Shown here: one piece after another, positions 55,093 to 64,000 of the stretch
How the letters are laid out: each line of letters opens with the position of its first letter
Numbering within the stretch: position 1 is the first letter of the stretch
NCBI RefSeq assembly: GCF_017306545.1
Contig: NZ_JAFKID010000015.1
Location: 1 to 64,000 of the forward strand
Direction: 5' to 3'
DNA from: Mesorhizobium sp.
Lineage (GTDB): Bacteria > Pseudomonadota > Alphaproteobacteria > Rhizobiales > Rhizobiaceae
DNA length: 64,000 bases
Made by a program: the position numbers and the translations under genes
Notes under the pieces: model-generated
Databases searched by the model: none
What the model saw: only the letters and a program-made list of their open reading frames with translations
Told to the model about the DNA's origin: nothing

Positions 55093-55680
55093 ATGACGCT
55101 GTTTCCAATCGTGGCACTCATCGCCGGCTATGTGTGCGGCTCGATCCCCTTCGGCCTGCTGCTGACCCGCGCTGCCGGCCTGGGCGACGTACGCGCCATT
55201 GGCTCGGGCAACATCGGCGCCACCAACGTGCTGCGTACCGGCAACAAAGGCCTCGCCGCCGCCACTCTGGTTCTCGACGCGCTCAAGGGCACGATCCCGG
55301 CGCTGGTCGCCGTGCGCTACGGGCCGGAAACCGGCGCACTCGCCGGCTTCGGCGCTTTCGTCGGCCATCTTTTCCCGGTCTGGCTGGGCTTCAAGGGCGG
55401 CAAGGGCGTCGCCACCTATCTCGGCGTGCTGATCGGCCTCGCCTGGAATATCGCGCTGGTCTTCGCCGCCGTCTGGCTGATCATGGCGCTGATCTTCCGC
55501 TTTTCCTCGCTGGCAGCACTTTCCGCCTGCGTCGTCGTGCCGGTGGTGCTTTACCTGACGGGGCAAGGCGAGTTCGCCGTCGCTTTCCTGATCATGAGCG
55601 CCCTGGTGTTCTATCGCCACCGCGCCAATATCGAGCGGCTGATGGCCGGCACGGAAGGCAGGATCGGAGCCAAGGGATGA
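55093..55680 (+). CDS. plsY: Acyl-phosphate:glycerol-3-phosphate acyltransferase
   Basis: A 195-residue inner-membrane enzyme starting phospholipid synthesis from acyl-phosphate. Conserved loops are [43 protein letters not shown] and RHRANIERL. Start ATG at 55093 by the Shine-Dalgarno GGGGGAAG. Overlaps dprA by four bases. Confidence 0.96.
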
Positions 55681-56756
55681 ACGTCCCCGCCGGTCCGCGC
55701 CTCAGCGACCGGCAGCGGCTTGCCTGGCTTCGCCTCATCCGTACGCCCAATGTCGGGCCGGCGTCTTTTCGGGATCTCGTCAACCGCTTCGGTTCGGCCG
55801 AAATCGCACTGGAAATGTTGCCTGAACTGGCGATCTCCGGCGGCGCGGCGCGTATCCAGCGCATTCCCTCGCTCGCCGAAGCGGAAACGGAGATGGAAGC
55901 TGCGCGCAAGGCCGGTGCCCGCTTCGTGGCCGTCGGCGAGCCGGACTATCCGCCGCTGCTGCGCGGCATGGAACATCCGCCGCCGCTGCTGGCGATCAAG
56001 GGGCAGGGCACGGTGTTCCGCCTGCCGGCCGTCGCCATCGTCGGCGCCCGCAATGCCTCGCTTGCCGGCATCAAGATGGCGCGCACGCTGGCTGCCGAAC
56101 TCGGCGCCAGGGGCTACGGCATCGTCTCCGGGCTGGCGCGCGGCATCGATACCGCCGCACACCAAGGCAGTCTGGCAAGCGGAACAGTCGGCGTGCTGGC
56201 CGGAGGTCTGGACCAGCCCTACCCCGCGGAAAATATCGGTCTGTGCGAGGAGATCGCCGAACGTGGCGGCGCCATCCTTTCGGAAATGCCGTTCGGGTGG
56301 CAGCCGCGCGCGCAGGATTTCCCGCGCCGCAACCGCATCGTCGCCGGTATGGCGCTCGGGCTGGTCGTGGTCGAGGCGGCGCAGCGGTCCGGCTCGCTCA
56401 TCAGCGCGCGCCTCGCCGGCGAGATGGGACGGCTGGTATTCGCCGTGCCGGGTTCGCCGCTCGATCCGCGCGCCGGCGGCACCAACGGTTTGCTGAAGGA
56501 CGGCGCCATTCTCGTCACCGAGGCTGCCGATGTCATGGACGCACTGGCGCCGTTGGCCGGCCTGCCCGCGCCGTCCTTCGGCCCGCTGAAGGAGTCGCCG
56601 GATTTCTCGGCAACGGCGCCGCCCGGCGAAGACGACCGCGCGCGCATTGTCGAGGCGCTGGGACCGGTTCCGGTGGCGGTCGACGAGATCATCCGCCATA
56701 CCGGCCTGCATCCCGCCCAGGTCTTCATGGTGCTCCTGGAACTCGACCTGGTGTAG
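55677..56756 (+). CDS. dprA: DNA-processing protein DprA, C-terminally truncated
   Basis: A 359-residue single-strand-DNA-binding RecA loader. The Rossmann-fold core has GSGKARNA-like [36 protein letters not shown] and [23 protein letters not shown]. The C-terminal winged helix begins ([22 protein letters not shown]) but stops at a TAG right after, where family members run on about 15-20 more residues (AGRVxRxxGG-type wing). The stop is supplied by the adjoining prophage end, so the gene is cut by insertion. Confidence 0.9.
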
Positions 56757-56759
56757 CGC

Positions 56760-56799
56760 GCAAATTCACTTGGCACAAAAACGCAAGTTCACTTGGCAC
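56760..56799 (+). repeat. Paired direct repeats at the prophage end
   Basis: GCAAATTCACTTGGCAC begins at 56760 and GCAAGTTCACTTGGCAC at 56783, one mismatch over 17 bases with a period of 23. They are framed by the inverted pair CGCGCAAA (56757-56764) and TTTGCGCG (56806-56813). TTCACTTG followed by AC and A-rich bases resembles the MuA-binding consensus. They may be transposase sites at the phage end. Confidence 0.6.
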
Positions 56800-56836
56800 C
56801 AACTTTTTGCGCGCCGGGCCTCCTAAACCACCGCCA

Positions 56837-57298
56837 TCAGCCCGTGTGCGGCCTCGGGCTATCAAGCCGGCAGCCATATGCCGACACCACGATATTCGCC
56901 CGCCCGCGGCAGTCGTAGCACGGCTCCTCGCAGCGCTCCGTTTCACGACGCCGACAGATCATCAACGCTACCTCGTCACGCGTCGGCTTTGACTGCTCTG
57001 CGACCAACCTTGAGGCGACAATCGCTGCTGTCGCCGGCGTCAGGATCACCCGCTTGCCTGCGTTGGCGCGCCCTGAAATCCAGCACGCCAGCTCGAACAG
57101 GTCTCGCCAGCGGCGGTTTGGCGCCGGCTCCGGCCGCCGTCGATCGACTTCGCCCGCGATCTTCGCCGCAGCCGCGCTATCGAGCCCCTCGGGCCTTTTC
57201 GGATTGTGGCTCAAAACTGCCTCCATCAACTGAAGGCCCCAGCGATTCTCAAAGAGCACGCCGGGCGCGCACAGGCAAGCGCGCTCGACGAACGTCAC
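56837..57298 (-). CDS. Phage hypothetical protein with clustered cysteines
   Basis: A 153-residue protein of unknown function, last gene before the prophage end. The C-terminal part has four close cysteines (ICRRR, then CEEPCYDC), able to bind zinc. The middle is helical and basic. It starts with GTG that overlaps the methyltransferase stop (GTGA), so it is coupled to it. In Mu the equivalent position holds com/mom, and Com is a small zinc-binding translation regulator; the likeness is positional only. Confidence 0.55.
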   Translation of the reverse strand: MTFVERACLCAPGVLFENRWGLQLMEAVLSHNPKRPEGLDSAAAAKIAGEVDRRRPEPAPNRRWRDLFELACWISGRANAGKRVILTPATAAIVASRLVAEQSKPTRDEVALMICRRRETERCEEPCYDCRGRANIVVSAYGCRLDSPRPHTG

Positions 57299-58098
57299 CC
57301 TGACCTCACGATCAATTCCTCTGCCGGCCGCGCGCCGCCGCCGGCGCCGTAGTGCAGCTCGACGTGCTCCATGGCGAAGGCCGCAAATATCTCGCGGATC
57401 TCGGGTACGTCGTTAATGGACAGGATAAACCGCCCCTTCAGGTAACCGAGGCGCTCGGCCATGATGGCAAATTGGGCGCGGTCGAACAGCTCGCGGCCGT
57501 AGTAGCCCTCCGAGCCCCAATAGGGCGGATCGAGGTAGAAGAGCGTGTCCGGGCGATCGTAGCGGTCGATGAAGGCGATCCAGTCAAGGCGCTCTATCGT
57601 GACGCCGGAGAGGCGGTCGTAGATGTCGGCCAGCAGCGGCTCCAGCCGGGACAGATTGAAGCCGGCCGAGGCGCCGACGTCGACGCCGAAGTGCTGGCCA
57701 TTGACCTTGCCGCCGAAGGCGAGGCGCTGGAGGTAGAGAAAACGGCCGGCGCGCTCCAGGTCAGTCAATGTCGCTGGATCGCTAACCTTAAGCCGGTCGA
57801 ACTCTTTGCGGCCGCTGAGCTGCCAGCGCAGCGTGTCGATGAACTGGGGGTAGTGGCGCTGGAGTATCCGAAAGAGGTTGGCAACCTCGCCGTTGCGGTC
57901 GTTGATGACCTCGGAAACAGGGCGCAGCCGGCGCCGGAAGAAGATGCCGCCCATGCCAACGAAGACCTCCGCGAAGGTGCGGTGCGGAACCGCCTCTATG
58001 CCGGCGATCAGCTTTGCGGCGAGCCGCCGCTTGCCGCCGATATAGCCCGCCGGCGGGCGAACGGGATCAATGGGTGTGAAAGGCGCTTCAAAGGTCAT
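57295..58098 (-). CDS. D12-class (Dam-type) adenine-N6 DNA methyltransferase
   Basis: A 267-residue methyltransferase. Motif X is AGYIGGKRRLA (about 17-27), motif I is EVFVGMGGIFFR, and motif IV DPPYWG is at 190-195, the order of Dam/D12 enzymes. No restriction partner is visible, so it probably modifies phage or host DNA for protection or gene control. It lies between the tail-fibre gene and the small Cys-rich gene. Confidence 0.92.
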   Translation of the reverse strand: MTFEAPFTPIDPVRPPAGYIGGKRRLAAKLIAGIEAVPHRTFAEVFVGMGGIFFRRRLRPVSEVINDRNGEVANLFRILQRHYPQFIDTLRWQLSGRKEFDRLKVSDPATLTDLERAGRFLYLQRLAFGGKVNGQHFGVDVGASAGFNLSRLEPLLADIYDRLSGVTIERLDWIAFIDRYDRPDTLFYLDPPYWGSEGYYGRELFDRAQFAIMAERLGYLKGRFILSINDVPEIREIFAAFAMEHVELHYGAGGGARPAEELIVRSG

Positions 58099-58238: not shown

Positions 58239-59906
58239 TTACGTCAGCGCCACCCAGCGCCGGATGTAGGGGACCACCATGCCCGAGATTTTGACGTGGC
58301 CAGGCCCGTACGGGTGCAGCCCGTCCGACAGGTCGCGGCCAGGGCCGATCGTCCCATCGGGGTCCCAAACCTCGAAGTCCTTGACAATCCCAGCTTCGGC
58401 CGCGCCGTCGGCGACCTCGAAGCCGTAACGCCTGGCAATCGCGCTCAGCCCGTCGGCGAGAGGCTGCATCAGGGTCGGCTCGATATCGGCGCGCTGGATA
58501 GGCAACATGCAGAGACGCCGGGCGTTGGGCCAGTGTATGTTGATCGTCCACATCGCCCAGCGCGCCGCTTCGAGCGTCTTGGATCGGTCGAGCGTTTCGC
58601 GCGTGGTCTTGCTCATGGCGGTGGCATAATTGCCGAGGTCCGGCAGGCCCGTCGCATAATCGTTCGTGCCGGCCGCCAGGATGAAGATGTTGGCCTGCCG
58701 ACCGTCCGCGTATAGGCGGGATATCTGGTTGGATATCTTCTGCATGTCGTCCTGGCCGTCGTACTCGCGGAAGGACGCGCCCGCCGTGGCGTAGTTGTAC
58801 CAGTCCTCGATGCCGAGCTCCGCCATCGCATAGTTCGGCCAGTTGTTCCGGGGGCCGGGCGTATAGCTTCCGTACATGTCGACCGTCGCCGTCTGCGCGA
58901 TCGAATCGCCCGCGATCGCCACAGCCGGCGAGACCGGGATCGGCGTCGGAATGCCGTCGATCGCCACGACCCGCTCGGTGTAGTTTTCGGCGGCGGTCGC
59001 GAAGGTGCCGTATTCGAGCTGGATGCCGTAGCTCGGGGCGTTAGGGTTCCGCTGCCTGGGCGAAAATTGAAACCATCTGGCGGACGCCGGCCGCAGGATC
59101 ACCAGCGGCGCCGTCATCGCCGCGAGCAGATTGACGGTATCGACGACCGTCGTCTTGTCGGCGGCCAGCCACCGCCCCCACGGTCCTGCCGTCGATCCCG
59201 ATTGCAGGCCGCGAATGGTCAGGGTCGCGTGGGCGCCGACATAGATCATCTCCGAGATCGCCGAATCGGCCTCGTCGAAAATCTCGCCGGTCGGATAGAC
59301 CTCCGACCCCTCGACCACCGCCAGATAGTTGAAGAGGTTCTTGGTGCCGCCCAACATCTTTGACGGCCGCGCGCCGGCGCCAAGGACGATGAACGGATAG
59401 GTGGTGCTCGCCGCGTCGGCAGTGCACATCCATGTCGTCTGGCCCCATTTTGTGCCGCCGGCGACATAGACGGCCAGGCCGACGAGCTCGGCGACCGAGT
59501 CGGCGTCGGGATGACGCGTCCAGGGGCCTGCGCCCGTGACATACACCCCGTTCTGGGATTCATCGATCTGCGCCGGCACGAGCACCGTTGAAGCAGACGT
59601 CGTCACCGTCGTGTCGAGGGTCTGCTCGCCCGACAGGGTGATGTTGGTCGTCGCCGCCACCGCCACCTCGATCTGCCTGTCCATCCGGCTCGCCGCGATC
59701 GCCTCGACCTCGGTCAGCCCTTCCTCGAGGTTGGCGATGCGGGAACGTAGCGACATGAAGGAGGTCGAGCTGAGGAGGGCCTGGGCCGCATTGGCGATGG
59801 AGAGCGGGCGCGGGCCGACGCGCTGGCCGTCGACCGTCGTCATGCCGAACAGATAATCGACGGCGGACAGCGGCTCCTTGTCGACTGCGCGTATGCCTAT
59901 GGTCAT
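58239..59906 (-). CDS. Phage tail-fibre-type protein with SGNH hydrolase domain
   Basis: A 555-residue protein. The N-terminal part is helical, then a beta domain at about 85-175 (LSGEQTLDTTVTTSAST and DESQNGVYV...WTRHPDADSVAELVG) common in phage fibres. The C-terminal third is an SGNH hydrolase: IAGDSIAQ with nucleophile Ser 335, LAAGTNDYATG with Asn 415, and SDGLHPYG with the Asp/His pair. It could deacetylate or cleave a surface polysaccharide used as receptor. It follows the TipJ gene by 13 bases. Confidence 0.88.
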   Translation of the reverse strand: MTIGIRAVDKEPLSAVDYLFGMTTVDGQRVGPRPLSIANAAQALLSSTSFMSLRSRIANLEEGLTEVEAIAASRMDRQIEVAVAATTNITLSGEQTLDTTVTTSASTVLVPAQIDESQNGVYVTGAGPWTRHPDADSVAELVGLAVYVAGGTKWGQTTWMCTADAASTTYPFIVLGAGARPSKMLGGTKNLFNYLAVVEGSEVYPTGEIFDEADSAISEMIYVGAHATLTIRGLQSGSTAGPWGRWLAADKTTVVDTVNLLAAMTAPLVILRPASARWFQFSPRQRNPNAPSYGIQLEYGTFATAAENYTERVVAIDGIPTPIPVSPAVAIAGDSIAQTATVDMYGSYTPGPRNNWPNYAMAELGIEDWYNYATAGASFREYDGQDDMQKISNQISRLYADGRQANIFILAAGTNDYATGLPDLGNYATAMSKTTRETLDRSKTLEAARWAMWTINIHWPNARRLCMLPIQRADIEPTLMQPLADGLSAIARRYGFEVADGAAEAGIVKDFEVWDPDGTIGPGRDLSDGLHPYGPGHVKISGMVVPYIRRWVALT

Positions 59907-59919
59907 GGTGAGGCTCCAG

Positions 59920-62900
59920 CTAGATGACGGTTACGGTGATATCCGCGCTCTGCGGGCCGGCCTGGCCGTCCTCGTTGAGCGGTTCGAGCTTGTACGTGTG
60001 GTCGCCCTGGGAGAGGCATGCGGCCGTCTCCTCGTAGAGCACGACGTCGTCCAGCGAGCCGTTGAAGGCGGCGTCGGCCGAGAACATCAGGTTGACCGGC
60101 GTCGTGCCGGCGACGATGCGGAACAGAAAGCGGCCATTGGCGGTCACCGCCGGCGCCGACACCGTGGCCGCGCCGTGGAGCTTGGCAGTGATGGAGCCTG
60201 CCGATCGACCCGAGACGGTCGCCGCGCCGCGATAGGCCTTGCCGGCCGTCATCGGCACCGTCTGGTAGAGATCGGATGCCGTCCCGGCCGCATGTGTGGC
60301 GACGCCGCCGGCCACCGACCAGCCGGCCCCTAACGCCCACCACGAACTGGATTCAAAAGTGCCGTTGTGGATCAGATCGGTGCGCGTCGAATCGCCGTCG
60401 ATTCGGCCGAAGGTCCCGTTCGGCGACACCGGCACCGTGGCCGGCAACGCGACCCCGTCGCGATAGATGCGGACGGCGTCGGTGTACGGGTCCGGGCCGG
60501 TGGCGAACGTGATCTCTGCCTGACCGAGCTTGCCGACGATCTGGATGGCGGACGCCGGCAACGCGGCCGGCAACACCGTCCCCTCGAGCGTCAGCGTGAC
60601 GACGGCGCCCCACAGGCCGACCGTATCCCAAACGGAGGTCGCCTGCGCTTGCAGCTCCAGCGCGTCGCCGACATTGTAGCCGGCCAGCTCGACCATGGCG
60701 CTCGCCGCCGTCGAAGTCGCCGTCGACCAGGCACCGGCGCCGGAAAGGCGATGGCGAAGCGTATAGGTGGCGACGTCGACGACGTCGCCGGTCGCCTGCT
60801 CCAGCCGCACATAGGTCTTGCCGGTCCCGGCGTCCTTGCGCACCCACACGATACGCGGCGCCGAGGGCTGGATGCCCGACAGGTCGGCGACCTCGCCCAC
60901 CTTGCCGTCCCATGCCGGGATGACTGCCGCGTCGGTCAGTTCGTCGATCTGCGGGGCGGCCGGCAGGAGCGTCAGGTCGGAGCCGCCGTCCTCGCGGCGC
61001 TGGATGCCCGTCAGGATGAGCGGGATGCTCTCCGATCCATACTCGCCGAGCATGATGATGGCGCCGGGCTCCGGCGTCAGGCCCTCGCCGTCCAGCACGA
61101 CCGCGCGCGTCTCCCCGTCGAAGCCCACGACGCGCCGCACCATATGCTGGCCGAGCGGGTTTGCCGCCGCCTCCGCCTCGGTGGCCGGCAATACGCGAAA
61201 ACCGACCGCATAGGCGGTGCCGGCCCGCATGGTCCACAGCTCGTCCACTTCGACGACGTTGTCTCGCACCCGCTTGACGCGGCCGGAGGCCATGGTCCGC
61301 CGCAGGATGTCCTTGGAGGCAAGCACGAGGTCGCCGCGCGTTGCCGAGCGGGCGATGCCGTCTTGTGTCGCGCGATAGACGACGTTCCGATATTGCAGCT
61401 CGTAGAAGCGACGGATGGCCTCGCGGTAGATCTCGGCCGGATCGGTTTTGCCCGGCATTTCCATCGCTTCCGTCGTCATGACGGGGCCGACCAGGCCGGG
61501 ACGGCGCACGATGCGCTCGGCCGGCTGATAGTCGTTCTGCGCGTCCTGGAACTTGATCCGGAGTGCATCCGGCAGCTCGGCATAGGCGACCTCGAACGTG
61601 ACGTTGGAGGCGTTGCGCGGCGTGATGACATCGATCGGCGTCTCGCGCGGCTTGTCGATGATGACGGTCCAGCGCGAGCCGTCGAAATAGACCGAGGCGC
61701 GGCCGGCCGCACCGATCATCTTGAGGGTATCGCCGAGCGACTGGCGCCCCTCTACGACCAGGTCGAACTTGAGGCCCTTGGCGGCGCAGAAATCGCGCCA
61801 CTCGATAAACTTCGCCCAGTCGATACGGGCGGACGCCTCCGGACGATAGAGGCCGGGGCCGAGCAGCGCGAAGAGCGCCGAGGTCGCCGGATTGCGCGGC
61901 TGGTCGGTCGGCCAGCCCTTGCCGAAATCGTCCGTCACCCGCCGCGTCATGCAGTTGTACGTCTGCACCTGGCCATTCATTTGGTAGGTCGCCTTGACAC
62001 GCATGGCGGTGAGGCAGAGCGGCACGGACGTATTAAACGGGTACTCCGGCCGGAAGGTCTGAAGCACCGCCCAGGTGCAGGTGAGCGCCATCGTCTCCTT
62101 CGCGTCGTCCTTAGCCTCGGAGAGCGTGTTGCGGGTGAGTTCGATCTCCCAGGCGGCGCGCTCCGGAAAGTCGACGCGGATGGCACGGTAGAAGCCGGCG
62201 AATTTTTTGGCGGTGAAGTCGATATCGGGCTGCGCGATCCACACGTCCGTCCCCGCCTTGCGGATGCGCATGGAGATGTTGATGCCTTGCGATTTTTTGT
62301 TGCCGTTTCCCGAAATCCAGCCGAGGCCCTGCGGAAACTGAAGGATGATGACGGCGTGCGTGGCGTTGTGGCCGGTCGAGCGCTTGACCGGCTTTTTGGG
62401 GTCCATCGTGTCGAGCTGATTGCCGGCGTCGTCGCGCTCGTACTGCCAGACGAGTTCGGTGCCGATCGAATCCTCAATAACCTGCTGGGTGTAGAGGCTG
62501 AACGGCTCGGAGCTGTCCGGATGGCCGACCGCGCCGCGATGCTCGATCTGGAATTCGTCGTAGTCGTCGATCGACGTATCGCCGATCTTGTGATCCCACA
62601 GATCGAGCTGGCCGAGGCCGTGGCAGAAGACGGCGCGGTTATAAAGGATGTCTCCGACCACCTCTATGTAGGAGGCTGCGGCGAACGGCGGCGAGTGGCG
62701 GATTTCGCCGAACGGGACCGGCACCGGTTCGTCCTGACGGTACTCGTTCTGCCAGCCGTCGATGACGAAGCTGTCCTTTTCCTGTTTTTGCTTTTTGGGC
62801 TGAAACAGGGCGTTGATGAGCACCCCGCCGATCGCGGTGATGCCGAAGCCAATGATGGTGGACCAGGCGCCGGCCGAGAGGCCGAGCGTGCCGGCGAGCG

Positions 62901-63657
62901 CGCCGCCGAGGCTGTTGGAGATCGCGGTCGCCGCCATCTGTACAAGCAGGGTCAGCGCCCCGGCACCGTGACCGATGGTGATGACGACGCTGGTCGACGG
63001 ATACGGGCGGACCAACCGCCAATTCCACAGTGGAATGACGGCCGTCCCTTTAACCGAGACAAGCGTCACCCGCACGCGCGGCAGCGCCGTCTCAGGCAAG
63101 TCCGGCAGCACCATGGCGACGATCTCGGCGACGGTCAGGCCAGCCGGAACGATGATCTCCTCGCGGCGCCGGTCGATGTCCATCGCATAGGGCGCTACGA
63201 CGACGCGCGAGCCGGCGACCGGCGGCGGTGCCGGCTCCGCCGAAACTCTAACGCTGTCGTCGCCGACCCAGCGGTAGGCGCCGACGAAGCGGCCGCGCCA
63301 GGGCGCGATATCGTAGCGGCCGATCTTGGCGTAATCGCCCTTGATGGTGTGCAACATCTGGCCGGGGGCGACATAGATGCCGACGTGGCTGTCATGGCCG
63401 CCGACTGTGAACAGCAGGAGGTCGAAGAGGCGCGGCTCCTCTACTTTTTGCCAACGCCCCGCCACCTTCTCGCGGCCGGCGATCGCGGCGATCTCGGCGG
63501 CGTCGCGATCGTCCAGGTACTCGGCCGCATGGTCCGGCAGATCGATGCCGAGCTCCTCGCGATAGACCAGCATGGCCAGTCCCCAGCAATCGGCGCCGTC
63601 ACGCGTGCGGCCCTTGGCGAGATCGGGGATGCCGACGTATGGAGCCACCCACCTCAT
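59920..63657 (-). CDS. NlpC/P60 peptidase fused to TipJ-type tail-tip protein
   Basis: A 1245-residue protein. Residues 1-130 are an NlpC/P60 (C40) domain with the nucleophile in GADCWGLAM (Cys 24) and catalytic His in GGHDSHVGIYV (His 91). From about 150 a TipJ/host-specificity domain follows (RVVVAPYAMDIDRRREEIIVPAG, a hydrophobic pore-like stretch at 265-305, VPFGEIRHSPPFAAASYIEVVGD). The C-terminal 400 residues carry fibronectin-like repeats and a carbohydrate-binding-like module (TDLIHNGTFESSSWW). The start ATG overlaps the DUF1833 stop. Usually these are two genes. Confidence 0.9.
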   Translation of the reverse strand: MRWVAPYVGIPDLAKGRTRDGADCWGLAMLVYREELGIDLPDHAAEYLDDRDAAEIAAIAGREKVAGRWQKVEEPRLFDLLLFTVGGHDSHVGIYVAPGQMLHTIKGDYAKIGRYDIAPWRGRFVGAYRWVGDDSVRVSAEPAPPPVAGSRVVVAPYAMDIDRRREEIIVPAGLTVAEIVAMVLPDLPETALPRVRVTLVSVKGTAVIPLWNWRLVRPYPSTSVVITIGHGAGALTLLVQMAATAISNSLGGALAGTLGLSAGAWSTIIGFGITAIGGVLINALFQPKKQKQEKDSFVIDGWQNEYRQDEPVPVPFGEIRHSPPFAAASYIEVVGDILYNRAVFCHGLGQLDLWDHKIGDTSIDDYDEFQIEHRGAVGHPDSSEPFSLYTQQVIEDSIGTELVWQYERDDAGNQLDTMDPKKPVKRSTGHNATHAVIILQFPQGLGWISGNGNKKSQGINISMRIRKAGTDVWIAQPDIDFTAKKFAGFYRAIRVDFPERAAWEIELTRNTLSEAKDDAKETMALTCTWAVLQTFRPEYPFNTSVPLCLTAMRVKATYQMNGQVQTYNCMTRRVTDDFGKGWPTDQPRNPATSALFALLGPGLYRPEASARIDWAKFIEWRDFCAAKGLKFDLVVEGRQSLGDTLKMIGAAGRASVYFDGSRWTVIIDKPRETPIDVITPRNASNVTFEVAYAELPDALRIKFQDAQNDYQPAERIVRRPGLVGPVMTTEAMEMPGKTDPAEIYREAIRRFYELQYRNVVYRATQDGIARSATRGDLVLASKDILRRTMASGRVKRVRDNVVEVDELWTMRAGTAYAVGFRVLPATEAEAAANPLGQHMVRRVVGFDGETRAVVLDGEGLTPEPGAIIMLGEYGSESIPLILTGIQRREDGGSDLTLLPAAPQIDELTDAAVIPAWDGKVGEVADLSGIQPSAPRIVWVRKDAGTGKTYVRLEQATGDVVDVATYTLRHRLSGAGAWSTATSTAASAMVELAGYNVGDALELQAQATSVWDTVGLWGAVVTLTLEGTVLPAALPASAIQIVGKLGQAEITFATGPDPYTDAVRIYRDGVALPATVPVSPNGTFGRIDGDSTRTDLIHNGTFESSSWWALGAGWSVAGGVATHAAGTASDLYQTVPMTAGKAYRGAATVSGRSAGSITAKLHGAATVSAPAVTANGRFLFRIVAGTTPVNLMFSADAAFNGSLDDVVLYEETAACLSQGDHTYKLEPLNEDGQAGPQSADITVTVI

Positions 63658-64000
63658 CGATGCAGCCCCGGAAAGCGCTCTTTGGTCATCCTGACGGCCG
63701 GAAACGGCTCGTCGTAGAGGTCCTCCATGCTGAATTGCAGGACGATCTGGCCCCAATCGCCGCTTGTGTTCTTCAGCTGAAGGCCGGACGTTTCCAATTC
63801 CACAAGGTCAGGAGTCGACGCCTTGACGACGGCGATGCGGGCTTTTGCGGGCACCGTGGTCGACGTCAGGACGCCGACGATGTCACTGTCCAGGACATCG
63901 AGAACCAACCGCGACGTCGGTTCGGTATCTTCCTCGTCGTCCGGCGGGATGACCAGCATGCCGGTGTAATAGAAGCGCTTCGGCGTTACCTTTTCAGGTC
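63654..64000 (-). CDS. DUF1833 tail-assembly protein, partial
   Basis: The gene continues beyond the window; about 114 C-terminal residues are visible. The segment RFYYTGMLVIPPDDEEDTEP, the DVLDSDIVGVL strand and the end SMEDLYDEPFPAVRMTKERFPGLHR match DUF1833 (tail proteins upstream of NlpC/P60 in siphoviral tail modules). The frame is open to base 64000. It overlaps the peptidase-TipJ start as ATGA. Confidence 0.88.
   Translation of the reverse strand, partial: PEKVTPKRFYYTGMLVIPPDDEEDTEPTSRLVLDVLDSDIVGVLTSTTVPAKARIAVVKASTPDLVELETSGLQLKNTSGDWGQIVLQFSMEDLYDEPFPAVRMTKERFPGLHR

Follow-up and report, generated by a model that had tools for sequence, protein, structure and literature searches.

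The tail-gene end of a Mu-like transposable prophage within dprA of Mesorhizobium sp., and a 10-bp phased array inside the opposite end

The stretch analyzed here, referred to as the window, covers positions 1–64,000 of a Mesorhizobium sp. contig of 138,425 bp (NZ_JAFKID010000015.1), and window and contig numbering are identical. Within it, the dprA gene breaks off next to a pair of short tandem repeats. Judged from the sequence, this feature is almost certainly the right end, on the tail-gene side, of a Mu-like transposable prophage of 40.8 kb, which would have entered dprA by DDE transposition. An earlier note, prepared from the window alone, had proposed a Mu-type transposable prophage end in dprA, and this proposal is borne out by the recovery of both ends, a target duplication, MuA, MuB, and Mu head genes. 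The features at the junction are as follows.

55677–56756, forward strand: truncated dprA, with Pfam matches to DprA_N, DNA_processg_A, and DprA_WH
56747–56751, no strand: 5-bp target-site duplication CCTGG, with its second copy at contig 97582–97586
56752–64000, no strand: portion of the prophage within the window, continuing to contig 97581
56756–56814, no strand: framing 9-bp inverted repeat, arms GCGCGCAAA (56756–56764) and TTTGCGCGC (56806–56814), probably incidental
56759–56776, forward strand: R1, the outer transposase-site-like repeat, found at the same offset in the right ends of relatives
56782–56799, forward strand: R2, the second transposase-site-like repeat, 23 bp further inward

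The dprA frame is cut at TGTAG, as previously noted: this motif begins at 56752 and contains the stop at 56754–56756. The truncated protein has lost its last 18 residues (AGRLERHAGGAVSLVFAD) and gained one V, and its Pfam DprA_WH match extends only to profile position 51 of 61. When 124 kb of the contig was searched in six frames, the missing C-terminus was found at contig 97586, where the far junction reads ...GGGGTACA followed directly by CCTGGCC. The prophage limits are contig 56752–97581 (40,830 bp), with TG...CA ends. When the flanks are joined without the prophage, a single dprA frame ending in ELDLAGRLERHAGGAVSLVFAD is obtained, so the inverted opposite end with a 5-bp target repeat restoring dprA, for which the earlier note had advised looking, does exist. 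The flanks searched contained 1,540 TG/CA pairs with a 5-bp duplication, of which this one showed the highest terminal similarity (20/28; runner-up, 18). A dprA match was present in 59 of 61 genomes of the family, and the gene was uninterrupted across the insertion point in all 11 relatives whose loci were read.

The gene content of the prophage was assessed by scanning 33 distinct open reading frames (ORFs) out of 56 candidates listed. From the repressor side, the order is a repressor-like protein (phrog_3037, 7.6e-7), a Ner-like protein (HTH_35, 1.8e-24), a ParB-like protein (phrog_3264, 4.4e-35), a regulator (phrog_2345), a MuA-type DDE transposase (rve, 3.3e-12; HTH_Tnp_Mu_1, 1.3e-7; phrog_310, 6.7e-96), an adjoining MuB-type ATPase (AAA_22, 2.6e-11; phrog_296, 1.5e-33), and a second regulator (phrog_2030). 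These are followed by DUF3164, an HNH nuclease, GemA (1.2e-29), a Mor-type activator (phrog_836, 1.8e-19), a GH108 lysin, a gp27 small terminase, a terminase, and a Mu portal, and then by Mu F fused to PBECR2, Phage_tail_S, an E-type capsid protein, connectors, a tape measure, the gpJ/NlpC tail tip, a GDSL-lipase, and a D12 methyltransferase. The head and packaging genes are of Mu type (Phage_Mu_Gp27, Portal_Mu, Phage_Mu_F, and Phage_tail_S). The transposase and MuB expected beyond position 64,000 were thus present; of the Mor and Com regulators expected alongside them, a Mor-like activator was found, and Com was not searched for specifically.

The element therefore combines the hallmarks of Mu-like transposable phages (proposed Saltoviridae): TG...CA ends with a 5-bp duplication, a DDE transposase with a Mu-type N-terminal DNA-binding domain, a MuB ATPase, Mu head and packaging genes, and, at sequence level, paired inverted end sites. 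Of the contractile tail and Mom that characterize Muvirus (Mu proper), neither was detected among the 33 ORFs scanned: a D12 methyltransferase stands in Mom's stead, no tail sheath was seen, and a tape measure and gpJ/NlpC tail tip are present; the tail genes are of siphophage type, and the particle would be expected to have the corresponding shape.

Immediately downstream of dprA is a tRNA-Lys(TTT) gene (contig 97664–97738), which begins 83 bp past the prophage end and is untouched by the insertion. Its proximity could favor a site-specific, integrase-driven prophage that came to rest in dprA, or beside the tRNA gene, by chance. We regard this as barely conceivable, as neither a tyrosine nor a serine recombinase occurs among the 33 ORFs, the ends are TG...CA with a 5-bp duplication, and the duplications differ among relatives. 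Two contrary outcomes named beforehand, an integrase with a tRNA or intergenic att site and repeats scattered across the genome, did not occur.

The second of these bears on the repeats themselves. R1 and R2 are 18-bp units (CGCAARTTCACTTGGCAC), 17/18 identical, with a period of 23; the tandem pair and its period had been recognized correctly, with the units taken as 17 bases. Across the 4.82-Mb genome, TTCACTTGGCAC has exactly two copies, both in the right-end repeats, and its reversed control pattern has no match. When up to two mismatches are allowed, two additional matches appear in contig 1–124000, at 11247 in host DNA and at the opposite prophage end. At this tolerance the window alone yields 3 matches against 3.25 expected, which is chance level; the non-random feature is therefore the exact tandem pair. 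The inward ends read TGTAGCGCGCAAATTCACTTGGCAC on the tail-gene side and TGTACCCCGCAAGAACACTTGGCAC on the repressor side, with the same site at equal offset.

Transposase relatives were collected from 397 sampled genomes of the order, 37 of which carried one, including the present genome; the other 36 all fall outside its family. Ends were sought in 20 of the 36, of which three (G070, G060, and G254) lacked the right-hand stretch, leaving 17 to be judged, and four of six further relatives in the class were added. A TG...CA pair with a 5-bp duplication and similar termini was accepted in 15/17 order relatives and 4/4 class relatives, with differing duplications. Since the duplications vary, dprA is not supported as a specific target. 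In all 19 relatives, the tail-side end (TGTAGCGCG) carries two sites 22–23 bp apart and the repressor-side end carries one. Right-end self-match at 22–23 bp was 12–17/18 in the Mesorhizobium prophage and 12 relatives, compared with a shuffle mean of 8.8 and values of at least 13 in 0.4% of shuffles. A motif model trained on L1 and R1 recovered the held-out R2 at offset 29–30 in 16/16 right ends (this prophage and 15 order relatives), and the same model placed L2 119–156 bp from the left end in 16/16, inverted in one. An end motif was sought in a Paracoccus solventivorans locus and not found there. In the relative G594, the 16-base tip of the tail-side end (TGTAGCGCGCCACATG) occurs twice in tandem.

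Several observations weigh against assignment to a Mu-like transposable phage or against the end comparison on which it draws. The Mu-transpos_C match of MuA reaches 19.1 bits, under the Pfam cut-off of 21.7; against Mu's own transposase, the protein gives only short matches (29% over 80 residues); and the site core is unlike that of Mu. In 5 of the 19 relatives (G326, G238, G354, G063, and G378), chance pairs equalled the accepted pair in terminal similarity, and the choice was made by TGT...ACA and the tandem pattern. G207 has recognizable ends without a 5-bp duplication, and G365 lies at a contig end and is not counted among the relatives with duplications.

The earlier note had likened the repeats to MuA-binding sites. 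The proposed role fits their layout and conservation; the consensus match, by contrast, is weak. The motif TTCACTTG is common to Mu L1 and the present site, but it stands at position 9 in Mu and 14 here, and different cores, TCAAATGGCA for example, are found among the relatives of the prophage. The consensus match was consequently rejected as evidence, and the resemblance to Mu's own sites looks coincidental. The real support for transposase sites comes from layout and conservation, on which R1 and R2 are most likely R1/R2-like docking sites to which MuA would bind. The prophage encodes several DNA-binding regulators, and the repeats might instead be operators for one of them, situated at the end by chance while the transposase uses other sites. 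This is very improbable, given that one site lies at equal offset from both termini and that the offset is kept in relatives whose cores have changed. The framing inverted repeat, described earlier as 8 bp, is present and measures 9 bp. It was not seen in the other right ends compared (72 bp each), and the framed stretch folds no better than shuffles (z −0.83). A functional hairpin was rejected on both grounds, and the repeat is probably incidental.

By analogy with Mu, the MuA-type transposase would bind L1, with L2 further in, at the repressor-side end and the adjacent R1 and R2 at the tail-side end. It would then pair the ends, cut at TG...CA, and join them to target DNA whose strands are cut 5 bp apart; repair would leave the CCTGG duplication. 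The phage would presumably replicate by transposition, and it may still be active. A fixed remnant, unable to move or to form particles, would accord with the single insertion and with one gene neighborhood of overlapping small ORFs. We consider it unlikely, given that the transposase relative search found MuA without an internal stop and that the prophage retains its two ends and its main gene modules.

The prophage genes adjoining the right end within the window are listed below.

56837–57298, reverse strand: ORF without a family match
57295–58098, reverse strand: D12-class N6-adenine DNA methyltransferase (Pfam PF02086, E 1.3e-19)
58239–59906, reverse strand: GDSL-lipase-domain protein at the end of the tail genes (Pfam PF00657, E 4.7e-8)
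59920–63669, reverse strand: NlpC/P60 and gpJ-like tail tip region (Pfam PF00877, PF24801, and PF13550)
63654–63959, reverse strand: minor tail protein, its frame running upstream beyond the window (phrog_396, E 1.1e-10)

Tail and modification genes therefore do lie beside the end, as had been suggested by comparison with Mu, with the difference that the modification gene is not Mom. A 57-base stretch of the methyltransferase gene (57347–57403) is 81% identical to contig C66:68064–68119 of the same genome. On the remainder of the contig, the Mu F-like head protein (75481–76731, reverse strand) is fused to a PBECR2 (Barnase/EndoU/ColicinE5/RelE-like) nuclease domain, which is possibly a toxin carried in the head.

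Comparison with known phages indicates that the prophage belongs to a kind already described. Escherichia phage Mu (NC_000929), a distant relative, shares its end logic, the set of MuA, MuB, Ner, GemA, Mor, gp27, portal, F, and G, and a phased array at left-end nucleotides 31–70, discussed below; it differs in its contractile tail, Mom/Com, an unrelated site core, and a transposase similar only in short stretches. Pseudomonas phage B3 (NC_006548), which we take to be a siphophage among the Mu-like phages, shares the gp27-type small terminase and the phased array, but it is not among the phage hits of the Mesorhizobium transposase and has different termini. An excerpt of PMC8705779 likewise names B3 as a siphophage in this group. 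The Sinorhizobium phages StopSmel and Aussie (OR786374 and OR786373) are rhizobial and Mu-like, with siphophage-type tail genes, Ner, transposase A/B, GemA, and Mor, and their D12 methyltransferase is 73% identical at the DNA level over 8% of the query. Their transposase nevertheless belongs to another subfamily, absent from the phage hits of the present one, and their end sequences differ. Both have been published as Mu-like S. meliloti phages, as shown by a title among the references of PMC12429752, and PMC10783043 groups RC1, RS1, RcapMu, and RR1-B as Mu-like. With StopSmel, Aussie, and RR1-B already in GenBank and in print, the suggestion that a rhizobial Mu-like siphophage of this type seems little described calls for correction.

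Among the phages in the collection, the transposase nearest to that of the prophage (35% identity over 98%) belongs to Rhodobacter phage RC1 and Rhodovulum phage RS1 (NC_020839 and NC_020866), which share gene order, TGTA ends, and the pairing of one two-site end with one single-site end. Unlike the Mesorhizobium prophage, its 19 relatives, and vB_ThpS-P1, they carry the two-site end on the repressor side; they lack a CGGGA array there and have a 10-bp-phased A-rich version at the tail side. RC1 and RS1, which are distant isolates, are 99.995% identical with different host DNA attached, and their homology starts and ends exactly at TGTA; host DNA at virion ends was seen only for these relatives. 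The Roseobacter phages vB_ThpS-P1 and vB_PeaS-P1 (KT381864 and KT381865) resemble the prophage in gene order, with genes for the Mu head and ParB, and ThpS-P1 shares the tail-side two-site end and the phased array; a tblastn search with the Mesorhizobium transposase at 1e-5 gave no match in either. In the ThpS-P1 record, 61 bases (1–61) precede the TGTAGCGTGACAG end. These are possibly packaged host DNA, despite the statement in a passage of PMC5488378 that the virion ends carry no host DNA >1 kb.

At the repressor-side end, between L1 and L2, GGCGGGATTA-like decamers recur every 10 bp and are thereby helically phased. The elements concerned lie outside the window.

Contig 97512–97554: 10-bp phased CGGGA array of the left end
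Contig 97421–97439: L2 site of the left end

Over left-end nucleotides 26–75 of 13 family members, in which the array was first spotted and whose p-values are post hoc, mean self-match was 0.56 at lag 10 and 0.52 at lag 20, as against 0.22–0.37 at the other lags from 5 to 21; lag-10 controls gave 0.25 in inner left stretches and 0.29 in right ends. Twelve IMG/VR ends, selected solely on the L1 pattern and drawn from 11 contigs, some of them alike, had a mean of 0.52, with p ≤0.0425 in 12/12.

With correction for scanning, the test was significant for 28 of the 29 gp27-group left ends, including Mu, D108, SfMu, B3, HS6, and ThpS-P1, with MuM16-1 the exception, whereas controls were significant in 1/23 right ends and 1/29 inner left stretches; Mu/D108/SfMu, StopSmel/Aussie, and D3112/DMS3 are non-independent sets. 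The 29 do not include G207 and G365, the left end of HS6 was assigned by position alone, and SuMu (whose record does not start at the TG end), PeaS-P1 (left end not found), and 3927AP2 were left out. In the DUF1804 terminase group, two of six were significant, RR1-B and KS10, with no significant array in D3112, DMS3, RcapMu, or RcWaterboi by the same test. The RcapMu record annotates attL repeats, and a portion of PMC2628397 describes four direct-repeat sites in KS10. Terminase type was assigned by Pfam for the present prophage, Mu, B3, MuM16-1, HS6, RC1, ThpS-P1, StopSmel, RR1-B, D3112, and RcapMu, taken from the record's annotation note for KS10, and assumed from kinship for D108, SfMu, Aussie, the 19 genome relatives, DMS3, and RcWaterboi. 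A fixed-window, unscanned test was not significant for the left ends of MuM16-1 (0.26), StopSmel (0.11), Aussie (0.37), and RR1-B (0.07), and was significant in 2/18 right ends (G354, 0.003; G382, 0.048). In RC1, the phased stretch lies at the tail-side single-site end (p 0.001; repressor side, p 0.715).

Two functions may account for the array, at about equal likelihood, and both may apply. The Mu packaging start (pac) site presumably lies at about the place of the array. The array could be such a site, wrapped by gp27-type small terminase in the form of a ring that makes contact once in every helical turn, a possibility that we place a little below even. Its occurrence in 28/29 ends of the gp27 group speaks for this, as does the SPP1-like small-terminase ring, whose adjacent helix-turn-helix motifs, about one DNA turn apart, are proposed in part of PMC4737164 to select bent pac DNA. 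The arrays of the DUF1804-group phages RR1-B and KS10, the non-significant result for the gp27 phage MuM16-1, and the tail-gene-end position in RC1 speak against it; KS10, RR1-B, and MuM16-1 also weaken terminase type as the sole cause of the array. With similar reserve, the array could be a bendable transpososome spacer wrapped by HU or MuA. It lies between L1 and L2 and tracks the single-site end even in RC1 and KS10, and its place fits the 74-bp L1–L2 spacer of Mu, for which site-specific HU binding in the transpososome is published (excerpt of PMC3820752). Conversely, D3112, DMS3, RcapMu, and RcWaterboi are transposable yet lack a significant array, and a mere bend would not require the CGGGA motif to be kept.

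Taken together, there is an only slightly less than even case for the array (consensus approximately GGCGGGATTA, at least four turns, just inside the single-site end) as a cis-element found widely among transposable phages, with alphaproteobacterial prophages at one extreme and E. coli Mu and Pseudomonas B3 at the other. It would be read by shape and sequence, through a small-terminase ring or HU/MuA wrapping, and would mark the starting end for packaging, transpososome assembly, or both, with the asymmetric end pair exchanged relative to the gene map in RC1/RS1. An earlier account of the 10-bp array was not found in the literature searched, which covered subscription journals to a limited extent, and one may be in print.

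Mu-like phages of rhizobia have already been published, and the parts worth following are the left-end array and the swapped RC1/RS1 ends. With both of its limits defined, the prophage itself adds to an alphaproteobacterial Mu-like group. Prediction programs often misplace the limits of such prophages, according to a section of PMC8705779; because the ends of this group obey a simple rule, its prophages can be mapped exactly. The truncated dprA offers a natural experiment on the importance of the 18 C-terminal residues of DprA. An array common to transposable phages would be a precise, testable candidate for what marks the end at which packaging or synapsis starts.
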